Assembly (NCBI GenBank): GCA_001772865.1
Contig: MEVD01000013.1
Location: 46,727 to 94,665 of the forward strand
Source: a candidate division WWE3 bacterium RIFCSPHIGHO2_02_FULL_38_14
GTDB lineage: Bacteria; Patescibacteriota; WWE3; UBA101185; UBA10185
Length of the DNA: 47,939 bases
Reading direction: 5' to 3'
Every line of letters begins with the position of its first letter. Within the stretch, counting starts at the first letter, position 1. The translations under genes were made by a program, and so were the position numbers. Below the pieces are notes generated by a model, which saw nothing but the letters and a program-made list of their open reading frames with translations, was not told the DNA's origin and did not search any database. This document shows, in pieces, positions 2,690 through 7,162 of this stretch.

Positions 2690-3646
2690 CTAATAAAATA
2701 CCCGATTATAAGCCTTTCGCAGTTCTGACTTTTGGTGCTGATACGCCTGGTCAAACTCTATTCCTTTATTCTTTGAACTGATTCTATCAATAAAACCTTC
2801 TGGATCTTCAGCTATTGATTTTAATCCTCCTAATACTGAATCCAGAAGCGACTCGTAATCAACTTCACCTGATTTAATTTTTATTAGAATATTCGGATCA
2901 TGAGTTAACAACAACAATCTTGATACAAGTGTCACAGCAGGTTTTGGTTGCTTATGAAGTTGATTTTCACGGATACTTTGCACTATTGAATAAAGTCTTT
3001 CAGGTCCGTTTATTTCTTTCTGGGACAAATAAAATACCATAAACATTCCATAAAATTCCGCTAAGTATCCTTCAGCAAACCCGCGATCCAAATTTTTTAA
3101 ATTTTTAAGCACGAAAAGCTCCACTAGAGCCTCTTCGTGGGCGTCACTCAAATCCTGGCATTCTCTAAATTCTGAAGCGGACAGTCTCTCTTCCGGAACT
3201 TCCCTGATATCTATTGGAATTACTTCACCTCCAGTTCTGATATTTAATGCTCTGTGAATCTCTTCATGATTTTTTGTGGCTTTAGTAGATAAATCAAGTC
3301 TGTCAGGATTTTTAATCAAGCTATCAAGATAATCATTAGATTTCTTAATAATTGCCAAAGCAATATCTCTATGTCTGGAACCTTCACCAAACTGCCTTTC
3401 GATTTCACTATTAACTTCAATATTTTGTCGGCACATTTCCGGCGTAGTTGGTCTGACTGCAACAATATGCTTACCCATATGCTCGGCTAATTCTGGAAAA
3501 GAATCTTTAAATTGTTTAATACGCGTTACCTCAGGGGGCTCGTATAATCCTTGACCTTTAAACCTTTCCCCAAATGCATGAGCTCCTAAGTTAATTTCAA
3601 CCGTTTCGGGGATTTTATCTATGTCTTCGGGTTTTATTATATTCAT
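2690..3646 (-). CDS. Unknown protein with an HEXXH motif (possible metalloprotease)
   Basis: I do not recognise a family for this 318-residue, largely helical soluble protein. It contains NHEEIHRAL with H127-E-E-I-H131, a textbook zinc-metallopeptidase HEXXH, followed about 40 residues later by an acidic helix (DAHEEALVELFVL, residues 168-180) that could provide the third ligand. No signal peptide or membrane segment is visible, so it would act in the cytoplasm. A TACAAT -10 hexamer lies 6 nt before the ATG, so the mRNA is probably leaderless. An HEXXH can occur by chance in a helical protein. Confidence 0.6.
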   Translation of the reverse strand: MNIIKPEDIDKIPETVEINLGAHAFGERFKGQGLYEPPEVTRIKQFKDSFPELAEHMGKHIVAVRPTTPEMCRQNIEVNSEIERQFGEGSRHRDIALAIIKKSNDYLDSLIKNPDRLDLSTKATKNHEEIHRALNIRTGGEVIPIDIREVPEERLSASEFRECQDLSDAHEEALVELFVLKNLKNLDRGFAEGYLAEFYGMFMVFYLSQKEINGPERLYSIVQSIRENQLHKQPKPAVTLVSRLLLLTHDPNILIKIKSGEVDYESLLDSVLGGLKSIAEDPEGFIDRISSKNKGIEFDQAYQHQKSELRKAYNRVFY

Positions 3647-3658: not shown

Positions 3659-3704
3659 GTTACAAAAAATCGGGAATACAAGAAATGAATAAATTTTTTG
3701 TTGC

Positions 3705-3794
3705 AGGAAGCAGCCTACGTATTATGCACCGGAAGTGCAATTGCGCAAGCCGTAGAGCACACATTGCCGGGGAGTAACAATGTGCGAGCTTCCC
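3705..3794 (-). ncRNA. Structured element downstream of TPR-like gene, copy 1
   Basis: Read on the minus strand, this 90-nt segment is closed by GGGAAGC (3788-3794) pairing with GCTTCC and a G-T pair (3705-3711). Inside is a 9-bp stem CGCACATTG/CAATGTGTG (3778-3786 with 3758-3766) and a second arm closed by CTACG/CGTAG (3751-3755 with 3715-3719) that contains a TGCAC/GTGCA hairpin. The plus-strand block CCGTAGAGCACACA is identical in copy 2, as is an AAAGTAG (minus) shortly upstream. Arm 1 differs from copy 2 at three positions but stays paired. No T-tract follows, so it is not a classic terminator. It could be an RNA or a DNA recombination site. Confidence 0.6.
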
Positions 3795-3828
3795 ATAGAA
3801 CCCTACTTTGAATGTTTAGAGAGCGGAG

Positions 3829-4497
3829 TTAGTGGCTAGCAGGTATTGATTTGTGACGCATGAGCCTCGCCCGAGCACGGAGATAATGTACCAAGAGATA
3901 GACTGGAGATAAGACTCCGTACATCTCCTGGTGGGAGTTGACAATCCCACGGCGCCAGGCTCGTTTAGCGAACACATTGGGGTCAAGAACACCTATCTGC
4001 AGGTAATCATTGAGTTCGCGTCTGACCCACTGCACAGGCACGCTTCGGGGTAGTTCACCTATCAGATGCCGACGGATTTGAGCCAATGCCACTAGATGTG
4101 TGAACCACACTAAGTCGCGTCGCTGCATTTCCGCCGCATGACCCATGGCATCAAGCCCGATCCTAAGGGCTTCGTTCATAAAGCCCATATCTAATCTCAT
4201 TCGGGCGATGTGGCGCATCACTTCGATCGTGCGATCTCTATTCCGCGACTCGCGAGCAAGCGAAAGTGAAATCTCAAAAGCCTGTTCGGCACGCCTGGCT
4301 AACTCAGCTACGAGATCTGTTTTTGCTCCAGGTCTCATCTGCCAATACGTGAGACCGATATGCGCCCACGCCATGGCACGATCTGAACGATTAGTTGCCA
4401 TGTCCCTCGCTAACTCAAAAAGGTCCAGCGCCTGCTCCCGCTTGCCCTCTTCTCGGAACTGTTCTCCCCATTGGATACATACATTGAAGGTACTCAA
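3829..4497 (-). CDS. TPR-like helical repeat protein, paralogue 1
   Basis: The 222-residue, arginine-rich, all-helical protein is read from a TTG start at 4497 with a strong Shine-Dalgarno site (GGGAGGTG). Residues ~1-120 look like tetratricopeptide-type helix pairs (REQALDLFELARDMA, AWAHIGLTYW). The C-terminal part carries NSHQEMY followed by a hydrophobic then basic helix. It is clearly homologous to the gene at 4684-5316; both share (N/K)SHQEMY, AWA.IGLTY and a basic end. Sampled stretches are about 55% G+C against about 27% in a neighbouring gene, suggesting acquisition. It has its own promoter and is followed by structured element copy 1. The function is unknown; protein or peptide binding is the usual role of TPRs. 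Confidence 0.8.
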   Translation of the reverse strand: MSTFNVCIQWGEQFREEGKREQALDLFELARDMATNRSDRAMAWAHIGLTYWQMRPGAKTDLVAELARRAEQAFEISLSLARESRNRDRTIEVMRHIARMRLDMGFMNEALRIGLDAMGHAAEMQRRDLVWFTHLVALAQIRRHLIGELPRSVPVQWVRRELNDYLQIGVLDPNVFAKRAWRRGIVNSHQEMYGVLSPVYLLVHYLRARARLMRHKSIPASH

Positions 4498-4530
4498 CTT
4501 ACACCTCCCTCATTCTTTGGTCTTAACCGC

Positions 4531-4538
4531 AGTATACA
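4531..4538 (-). promoter_or_regulatory. Promoter -10 of TPR-like paralogue 1 (shared block)
   Basis: A TATACT hexamer lies at 4531-4536 (minus), preceded by TG. It is part of an 18-bp block (4521-4538) that is identical to 5340-5357 in front of paralogue 2 and lies the same distance (about 33 nt) from the start codon. The -35 region is only T-rich. Confidence 0.6.
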
Positions 4539-4584
4539 CATTTAAAAGATAATAATAAATATTGGATTAAAAATATCTTGGGTC

Positions 4585-4660
4585 GGGAAGCAGCCAATGC
4601 GCGTTGCATGCATGGACCGTAGAGCACACACTGCTATGGGCAACAATATGTGAGCTTCCC
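4585..4660 (-). ncRNA. Structured element downstream of TPR-like gene, copy 2
   Basis: On the minus strand, a perfect 7-bp closing stem GGGAAGC/GCTTCCC (4654-4660 with 4585-4591) encloses the 9-bp stem CACATATTG/CAGTGTGTG (4644-4652 with 4625-4633) and a shorter second arm (CCATGC...GCATTGG). Relative to copy 1, arm 1 changes G-U to A-U, C-G to U-G and U-A to U-G, so pairing is kept. The second arm is shorter (76 nt total against 90). The AAAGTAG motif shared with copy 1 lies at 4669-4675. Confidence 0.6.
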
Positions 4661-4683
4661 AAAATCCTCTACTTTTACTGTTA

Positions 4684-5316
4684 TCAAGGAATTGTCACAT
4701 GACGCTTCACTTGTTTTCGAACTCGATGGAAGTTGACCAGAAAAGCGAATGGCACAAGCAGTCTTCTATACATCTCCTGATGGGATTTATAAATCCCTGT
4801 TCTCCAAGTCCGCAAGGAGACTTCATCCGCTTTCGTTTCCATCAGGAGATATTCCACAATCTCCCGATAAAGCCAATAAAAGGCTTCAAATCTGTCGAGC
4901 TTCCCAGCCTTGTGTAGCCGAATTTGTGCACGCGTCACCACGTGTACAAACGCGGGTATATCCAACCTACCCATTTTCTCGGCTACCCCCAACACAATCA
5001 GACCCTTCCTGCTGGCAGTTTCCGCATCTCCCTTCTCAAGCCACATTAGGGCTTCATTCCTATCAGCCTCCAAGATCCTGTTTTGATCTCCAGAAGCTTT
5101 GGCATTGGAATAGGACAATGCGAATGCATCATCAGCCTTTAAACTCTCTCGCAATCCCAGATAAGTTAGACCTATCCTCGCCCAAGCCAACGACTTTTCT
5201 GCTTGGTTTTGTGCGAGATCTCGAGCACGCTCAAACGATGCCAGAGCATGCTCTAGCAGCCCACTTACCATGAACCTCTCTCCATTTCGAATGGAGATCA
5301 AAAAACTTCCGTTCAT
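4684..5316 (-). CDS. TPR-like helical repeat protein, paralogue 2
   Basis: A homologue of the gene at 3829-4497, with the same layout: TPR-like helices (EHALASFERARDLAQ, LAWARIGLTYLG), then KSHQEMY and a basic tail ending KRHVTIP. The open frame extends upstream to 5394, but the ATG at 5316 has a good Shine-Dalgarno site (GAAAGGAG) and lies the same distance from the conserved TATACT block as in paralogue 1; the upstream extension would run through the groEL terminator. I therefore use 5316 (210 residues). One sampled stretch is ~57% G+C and another 45%, well above the surroundings. Element copy 2 follows its stop. No enzymatic motif is visible. Confidence 0.8.
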   Translation of the reverse strand: MNGSFLISIRNGERFMVSGLLEHALASFERARDLAQNQAEKSLAWARIGLTYLGLRESLKADDAFALSYSNAKASGDQNRILEADRNEALMWLEKGDAETASRKGLIVLGVAEKMGRLDIPAFVHVVTRAQIRLHKAGKLDRFEAFYWLYREIVEYLLMETKADEVSLRTWRTGIYKSHQEMYRRLLVPFAFLVNFHRVRKQVKRHVTIP

Positions 5317-5349
5317 TGTAGTTCTCCTTTCACCAGTTCTCTTAACCGC

Positions 5350-5357
5350 AGTATACA
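5350..5357 (-). promoter_or_regulatory. Promoter -10 of TPR-like paralogue 2 (shared block)
   Basis: TATACT at 5350-5355 (minus) with a preceding TG, inside the 18-bp block 5340-5357 that is identical to 4521-4538. It lies immediately downstream of the groEL terminator T-tract, so this cassette is independently transcribed. Confidence 0.6.
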
Positions 5358-5376
5358 TAATCAAAAGAAAATAAAA

Positions 5377-5401
5377 AACCCCTGTATTTTTCACAGGGGT
5401 T
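5377..5401 (-). terminator. Rho-independent terminator of groES-groEL
   Basis: AACCCCTGT/ACAGGGGTT form a perfect 9-bp stem around a 7-nt loop. On the minus strand it is followed by TTTTTTATTTTC. It lies about 90 nt after the groEL stop and separates the chaperonin operon from the TPR cassettes. Confidence 0.88.
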
Positions 5402-5491: not shown

Positions 5492-7162
5492 TTACATCAT
5501 ATCGTCCATACCGCCCATTCCACCCATGCCTCCCATACCACCCATTCCCGGACCGTTCATGTTTTTATCTTCTTTCTTGGGAGCGTCTGTTACCAAGCAT
5601 TCTGTGGTCAAGATCATTGTGGCAACGCTTACGGCATTTTGCAAAGCGCTTCTGGTAACTTTGGCAGGGTCAATCAATCCTTCTTTAACCATATCTACAT
5701 ATTTCATGGTTAAAACGTTCAACCCTAAATTCGGATTTTTTTCCTCTTTTGATCTTCTTTCGATTTCTCCCAAAGCCTTTCCGGCATCTTCGCCTGCGTT
5801 GGTTATTATCATTCTTGCCGGACCTTCAAGTGATTCGTATAATATCTTTACTCCGGTGGCTTCATCTCCTTCAAGAGTCAAGTTGTTCAATACTTCCCTG
5901 GCTCTCAAAAATGCAACTCCGCCCCCCGCAACAATTCCTTCTTCAACAGCAGCTTTGGTGGCATTTACTGCATCCTCAACCCTCATTTTCTTTTCTTTTA
6001 ATTCTGTTTCAGAAGCGGCCCCTACGCTTATTACCGCAACTCCGCCGCTCAGCTTTGCAAGTCTTTCCTGCAGTTTTTCTTTATCATAATCGGAAGTAGT
6101 TTGCTCGATTTGTTTTTCGATTTGTGAAATTCTCTTTTTAATATCTTCCTGGTCGCCTTTTCCTCCTACGATTGTTGTATTGTCCTTATCTGAAATTACT
6201 CTTTCTGCTCTACCTAAGTCCTCAACTGTGGCTGATTCAAGTTTTCTGCCCATTTCTTCGCTAAGTAAAGTTGCACCGGTTAAAACCGCTATATCTTCCA
6301 GCATCGATTTTCTTCTGTCCCCAAATCCAGGAGCCTTTACTGCGAGCGCGTTAAATGTGCCTCTCAGTTTATTTACAACAAGTGTTGCCAATGCTTCACC
6401 GTCCACATCTTCGGCAATCAGCACCAAGTTCTTTGAAACCTTCACAAAATTTTCAAGCAAGGGAAGCAAGTCCTGCAGACTCGAAATCTTTGAATCGGTA
6501 ACCAGTATATAAGGATCTTCAATTACAGCTTCCATTTTTTCCGGATTCGTTACAAAGTAAGCTGAAGCGTAGCCTTTATCAAACATCATTCCTTCTTTAT
6601 ATTCGAGTTCTAAGTCAAAACCCTTTGATTCATCTACTGTTATTACCCCCGTATTTCCTACTTTTTCCATTGCTTCGGCAATTAAATTGCCAATTTCTTC
6701 ACTTTGGGCAGAGTTAATAGCAACCTGAGCCTTTTCTTCTTTATTAGAAATAGGCTTAGCAAGTTTTTTGACTTCCTCCACAACCAAGTTAGTGGCTTTT
6801 TCCAAACCTTTTCTCAAAATCATCGAATTCGCCCCCGCGGAAACATTTTTCAATCCTTCATCAACCAAAGCCTGCGCTAAAACTGTAGCTGTTGTTGTGC
6901 CGTCTCCTGCAACATCGTTTGTTTTTGAGGCGGCCTCTCTAACTAATTGAGCACCCATATTTTCGTACTTATCTTCCAGTTCGACTTCTTTAGCAACGGT
7001 AACACCGTCATGCACTACCTGAGGGGCTCCGTAAGATTTATCTATTCCTACGTTTCCTCCCTTTGGTCCTAAAGTAACTACAACTGCTCTGGCAAGCTTG
7101 TCAACTCCTGACTTGAGTTTTGCTCTCGCCTGATCTCCATAAATAATCATTTTTGCTGACAT
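5492..7162 (-). CDS. groEL: Chaperonin GroEL (Hsp60)
   Basis: ATP-driven protein-folding cage that works with GroES in the cytoplasm. The 556-residue length is normal. LGPKGGNV (31-38), DGVTVAKE (52-59) and GDGTTT with D87 (86-91) form the nucleotide pocket. [14 protein letters not shown] lies in the C-terminal equatorial domain, and the protein ends in the usual GGM repeat tail ([16 protein letters not shown]). A strong AAGGAGGA Shine-Dalgarno site precedes the ATG. It follows groES by 23 nt and ends at the terminator 5377-5401. Confidence 0.98.

Follow-up and report, generated by a model that had tools for sequence, protein, structure and literature searches.

Two tandem genes for TPR-like proteins lie beside groEL in the genome of a candidate division WWE3 bacterium, and the locus raises the question of why the sequences at both ends of each gene have stayed alike while the genes themselves have not. 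The window (the whole stretch of DNA analyzed, 47,939 nucleotides) belongs to a single contig in a draft genome of 0.94 Mb that is 96% complete. The two genes belong to two short minus-strand units, each consisting of a promoter block, a gene and a folded 3' element (Table 1), and the pair is flanked by groEL (5492-7162) on one side and by an unnamed gene for a 318-aa protein (2690-3646) on the other. On the minus strand, unit B spans approximately 5378-4571 and unit A approximately 4559-3691. The intrinsic terminator of groEL is found directly upstream of unit B, which suggests that a new transcript begins with that unit. The reading favored here, at a probability of roughly 0.45, is that the element forms a pseudoknotted RNA in the 3' UTR, specific to this lineage, which serves to set or protect the 3' end of the mRNA and which spread by tandem duplication.

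Table 1. Features of the two tandem units and of the preceding terminator (positions in the window; RNA letters are used for parts of the elements).
Feature	Coordinates	Strand	Details
groEL intrinsic terminator	5377-5401	-	just upstream of unit B
Promoter block, copy B	5340-5378	-	-10-like TATACT 5350-5355; identical 18-mer 5340-5357
Gene B, TPR-like, 210 aa	4684-5316	-	ATG at 5316; stop TGA 4684-4686
3' element B	4584-4678	-	GUAGAG 4667-4672 (pseudoknot 5' arm, predicted); GGGAAGC 4654-4660; hairpin 1 4625-4652
3' element B, remaining parts		-	CUCUAC 4619-4624 (pseudoknot 3' arm, predicted); hairpin 2 4592-4618; GCUUCCC 4585-4591
Promoter block, copy A	4521-4559	-	-10-like TATACT 4531-4536; identical 18-mer 4521-4538
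Gene A, TPR-like, 222 aa	3829-4497	-	TTG start at 4497; Shine-Dalgarno GGGAGGTG; stop TAA 3829-3831
3' element A	3704-3812	-	GUAGGG 3801-3806; GGGAAGC 3788-3794; hairpin 1 3758-3786
3' element A, remaining parts		-	CUCUAC 3752-3757; hairpin 2 plus extra inner hairpin 3712-3751; GCUUCC plus U 3705-3711

The contrast between genes and flanks was first pointed out in a sequence-only reading of this DNA, which described an identical 18-bp promoter block, an equal distance from the -10 hexamer to the start codon and strongly diverged coding sequences, and these observations hold. In both units the 18-bp block reads TGTATACTGCGGTTAAGA on the minus strand, identical at 18 of 18 positions. At up to three mismatches, 0.03 matches to it are expected by chance, and any other copy of its 15-base core in the genome has at least two mismatches. 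The likeness extends over a longer promoter block of 39 nt (34/39 identical, 87%), and the TATACT hexamer stands 33 nt from the start codon in both units. Conversely, the proteins encoded by genes A and B are only 42% identical, and at four-fold degenerate sites the genes agree at 13 of 40 positions, which is near chance; the silent sites are saturated and dS is not calculable. Against these four-fold sites, both the promoter (Fisher p = 8e-7) and the 3' element (68 of 95 aligned letters identical; Fisher p = 4e-5) are conserved well beyond silent sites. In a tree of the TPR genes, A and B group together with support of 97/99, a value that accompanies long branches flagged by the tool. This grouping identifies the two genes as in-paralogs that were duplicated within this lineage.

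The assignment of both genes as TPR-like, also made from the sequence alone, is borne out. Protein A matches TPR_12 with E = 8.6e-6, which is under Pfam's cut-off, and TPR profile matches are weak for single proteins but clear for the family, whose profile matches TPR structures down to 3e-29. For protein A, structure prediction gives an all-helical array (pLDDT 78), and the nearest PDB folds to this model are TPR proteins, with moderate TM-scores. Sequence repeats and an array of helical hairpins, the features by which TPR-repeat proteins are recognized, thus describe proteins A and B, and no named function fits them. Within the phylum sample, relatives close to full length are encoded only within the same bacterial family, by nine genes in 7 of 27 genomes (G000, G007, G010, G012, G021, G022 and G025). 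One of these genomes, G021, carries two tandem TPR genes of two older subfamilies, flanked by two apparent tRNA genes (L004, 1140-3000); this tandem arrangement has a separate origin within the protein family. The G+C content of genes A and B is 0.52 and 0.47 (0.53 and 0.47 at third positions) compared with 0.36 for the window, and third-position values of sampled neighboring genes range from 0.28 to 0.38. The same excess over the locus is seen for the relatives' TPR genes in G012, G022 and G010 and is absent in others (G021). A phage or plasmid origin of the genes was considered and rejected: no phage or plasmid protein matching A or B was found, and neither protein matches a PHROG or defense family, a Csx16-like hit at E = 0.008 being a partial match at chance level.

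The 3' element begins 11 nt after the stop codon in unit B and 22 nt after it in unit A. When each copy is folded alone in the gene sense, the same three-way structure of a closing stem and two hairpins is predicted. The closing stem comprises 7 bp formed by GGGAAGC with GCUUCC(C/U). It had been described as identical in the two copies, which is exact for copy B; in copy A the 3' arm reads GCTTCCT, and the outermost pair is therefore G-U. Hairpin 1 has 11-12 pairs. Its pairing was said to be kept despite three substitutions; all 11 shared pairs are indeed kept, and the substitutions number four. The base of hairpin 2 is common to both copies, its top is variable, and copy A contains an extra inner hairpin. 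The AAAGTAG motif noted after each stop codon was recovered at 3803-3809 (A) and 4669-4675 (B), and its pairing potential had been missed: as GUAGRG it can pair with the CUCUAC between the two hairpins, which makes the element a predicted pseudoknot. Six pairs are possible in each copy, which differ in one of them (G-U in A, A-U in B). A 6-bp match of this kind occurs in 2-5% of shuffled flanks, and in the best non-pseudoknotted fold of copy A the 5' arm is taken up by a small local hairpin; on its own evidence, the pseudoknot is suggestive only.

The fold is tied to one strand. Folding z-scores in the gene sense are -3.2 for A and -1.5 for B, against -0.65 and -0.88 for the other strand, and the consensus energy is -28.4 kcal/mol in the gene sense compared with -15.4 kcal/mol on the other strand, where the two copies give two different best folds and no common one. 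A common fold in the gene sense only favors a gene-sense RNA over a double-stranded DNA cruciform, although a single strand of DNA would fit as well. The substitutions that separate the copies tell the same story. With the six of the pseudoknot counted, the predicted fold has 32 pairs; both copies retain 31 of these, and one is broken. In all, nine one-sided substitutions in the helices all lead to G-U pairs in the gene sense, and one pair has changed on both sides. When the same substitutions are placed randomly on the same letters, as many pairs are kept with P = 0.0013 using the fold of A alone and P = 0.011 using the fold of B alone. In a pair-column shuffle control, which has no power with two rows, the observed value did not exceed the shuffles. 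The evidence on the element comes from two sequences, and strict covariation amounts to one compensated pair.

Could the likeness of promoters and 3' flanks have arisen with no selection on RNA at all? Once duplicated, the units might have kept both flanks alike through gene conversion or local copying, with the genes diverging for other reasons. Side-by-side copies are an ideal substrate for conversion, and the likeness is found at both ends of the unit and beyond the fold. Conversion leaves unexplained, however, that nearly all helix substitutions preserve pairing and do so on the gene-sense strand only, and that hairpin 2 has changed in size with its base kept. This explanation is considered rather unlikely, and the presence of a functional RNA structure of some form is judged probable. 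Of the proposal made in the sequence-only reading, the duplicated unit is upheld, with regulatory parts that evolved more slowly than the silent sites of the genes and with a fold that was kept through substitutions in the gene sense. If the RNA works as inferred, the element has been kept while the preceding protein changed more than half of its residues, and it would be among the few 3'-end RNA elements recognizable by evolution alone.

The further suggestion that the units might be part of a larger dispersed family did not survive the searches, and it falls by a refuting condition that the sequence-only reading had itself set, a lack of more copies in related genomes. Covariance models of the element with its flanks (R1) and of the element core (R2) found only two credible copies, those described here, in this genome, 45 genomes of the class and 380 genomes of the phylum; the large-set searches used stricter filters, with which weak matches may be lost. 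Other hits were at chance level; the best of them, in G359 (E = 0.0115 per genome in the 380-genome search), falls within a coding frame of 598 aa and was dismissed as chance. No match was returned by exact-pattern scans of species-level genomes and viral contigs or by close-protein scans, and the element matches no Rfam family, a sensitive scan up to E = 10 also giving no ribozyme family. Two weak blastn matches in Vibrio phages (E = 2 and 6) were also set aside as chance. One of these, in Vibrio phage 1.149.O (L065, 801-850; E = 2), is 78% identical to a portion of the element; it falls in a short intergenic stretch flanked by the gene of a baseplate protein and by a hypothetical gene, and is probably fortuitous. 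The LOOT RNA of candidate phyla was considered and set aside as an identification; the element has no Rfam match, and no paper was found under that name. The search for more pairs of TPR gene and element was equally negative, as the relatives' TPR genes come without the element. The genus is represented by one genome in the sample, and the element is known from that genome alone.

This distribution bears on whether the element acts on its own message or elsewhere. It could be the precursor of a trans-acting 3'-UTR-derived sRNA, or an RNA that joins the TPR protein in a ribonucleoprotein; its position after the gene would then reflect co-transcription only. The compact form and the 7-bp closing stem resemble those of stable processed RNAs, and the element has been retained with each of two paralogs. 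However, it has no promoter-like block of its own and no second locus, and relatives have the protein without the RNA, so that the TPR family as a whole does not depend on the element. A trans-acting or protein-bound RNA is on this balance unlikely, though it ranks first among the rival explanations.

In five relatives' genes (G021a, G012, G022, G025 and G010), an intrinsic terminator is found 5-25 nt past the stop codon. No intrinsic terminator (a G+C-rich hairpin followed by a U-tract) was found after gene A or B. Many other genes in the window likewise have no recognizable intrinsic terminator, so this absence is not striking alone. Since the relatives lack the element and five of their genes have a terminator there, the element can be said to occupy the terminator's place. 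With no intrinsic terminator between unit A and the gene for the 318-aa protein, read-through from A is possible; that protein has no significant Pfam, PHROG or defense-family match. A pseudoknot that stimulates stop-codon readthrough was rejected, because the frame past the gene B stop contains immediate further stops (TGA TAA CAG TAA AAG TAG).

A 3'-UTR RNA that sets the mRNA 3' end could work as follows. Each copy would be a monocistronic unit of one promoter, one TPR-like gene and one pseudoknotted 3'-UTR element, and both descend from a single tandem duplication, of ~850 bp, that took place in this lineage; since then the proteins have diverged, with the promoter and the RNA fold held. 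As transcription passes through the element, the RNA would fold into a compact pseudoknot closed by the 7-bp stem. The 3' end of the mRNA would be trimmed back to the closing stem and would then be shielded from 3'-to-5' exonucleases. The element would most probably serve the message that carries it, in cis, as a compact roadblock at which the 3' end becomes fixed; a stable 3'-end RNA may be a by-product. Computation shows the duplication, the conservation past silent sites, the shared gene-sense fold and the lack of an intrinsic terminator after A and B where five relatives' genes have one; production of the RNA, formation of its pseudoknot and an effect on the 3' end of the mRNA are what we infer. 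If the inference is right, this bacterium, which has a small genome and belongs to a large phylum, is a case in which a pseudoknotted 3'-UTR element has supplanted the hairpin terminator.

The closest counterparts are the structured 3'-UTR elements and 3'-UTR-derived small RNAs of bacteria, which are a class and not one Rfam family; they are likewise folded RNAs located right after the stop codon, in the gene sense and at the terminator position. This element differs in having no U-tract or simple terminator hairpin, in its three-way junction with a predicted pseudoknot, and in matching no Rfam entry. Structured 3'-UTR RNA is a kind already known, and the three-way pseudoknot predicted at the terminator position is new and found in one genome.

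The topology of class 1 exoribonuclease-resistant RNAs, a closing stem with two hairpins plus a pseudoknot that links the upstream strand to the junction, is shared by the predicted fold of the element. Those of flaviviruses (PMC7527734) are, however, viral, form a second pseudoknot through a loop, have conserved junction letters and halt a nuclease that arrives from the 5' side, and the element matches none of the Rfam families.

A second likeness raises the possibility of a self-cleaving ribozyme with an HDV-like nested pseudoknot, which would cut just before GUAG and so make the mRNA 3' end itself. In HDV-like ribozymes, P3 is short (3 bp) and positions loop L3 at the site of cleavage. The corresponding hairpin 1 of the element has 11 pairs, the P1-P2 linker is 6 nt long and the adenosines before P2' are absent. 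The nested double-pseudoknot order of these ribozymes, including the theta ribozymes of phages (PMC10879173), is P1, P2, P3, P1', P4, P2', and this order is matched by the predicted pairing of both copies. The agreement extends to a GG after P1', a CC in the loop of hairpin 1 and a C-U that may be taken as the end of the strand leading to P2'. In HDV-like ribozymes, the catalytic cytosine is the first position of J4/2 (PMC10879173); C100-U101 of the element, before P2', are conserved but paired within the predicted hairpin 2, and a J4/2 catalytic strand is not established. No Rfam ribozyme family matches up to E = 10, and self-cleavage of this type is judged very improbable. A bolder reading, in which the element founds a new class of self-cleaving or nuclease-blocking pseudoknotted RNAs that replaces the intrinsic terminator, with an HDV-type helix order and a long P3 kept through duplication, is a long shot.

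The same letters could also fold as single-stranded DNA. The element would then be a recombination site, and the units would be mobile cassettes, integron-like or of another type. A gene followed by a folded site, repeated in tandem, does recall cassette arrays with their attC sites; the G+C content of the genes (0.47-0.52 against 0.36 for the window) would fit a mobile origin, and G-T wobble pairs in one DNA strand would be kept in the same way as G-U pairs in RNA. However, most integron cassettes lack a promoter of their own, whereas each of these units has one, and the element is a Y-shaped three-way junction and not a single hairpin. Inspection of its ends by eye revealed no recognizable attC core motif, that is, no GTTRRRY/RYYYAAC pair. 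In this genome, 96% complete, an integron integrase over the curated cut-off is absent: TIGR02249 scores below its cut-off only, on other contigs, and equally in control genomes; only general tyrosine recombinases were found, likewise on other contigs. There is also no further copy of the element in the genome, and a mobile cassette is accordingly judged improbable. Adjoining groES-groEL in this small-genome bacterium, the segment 7642-8610 matches the FmrO family of rRNA methyltransferases at 30.3 bits, just over the cut-off.
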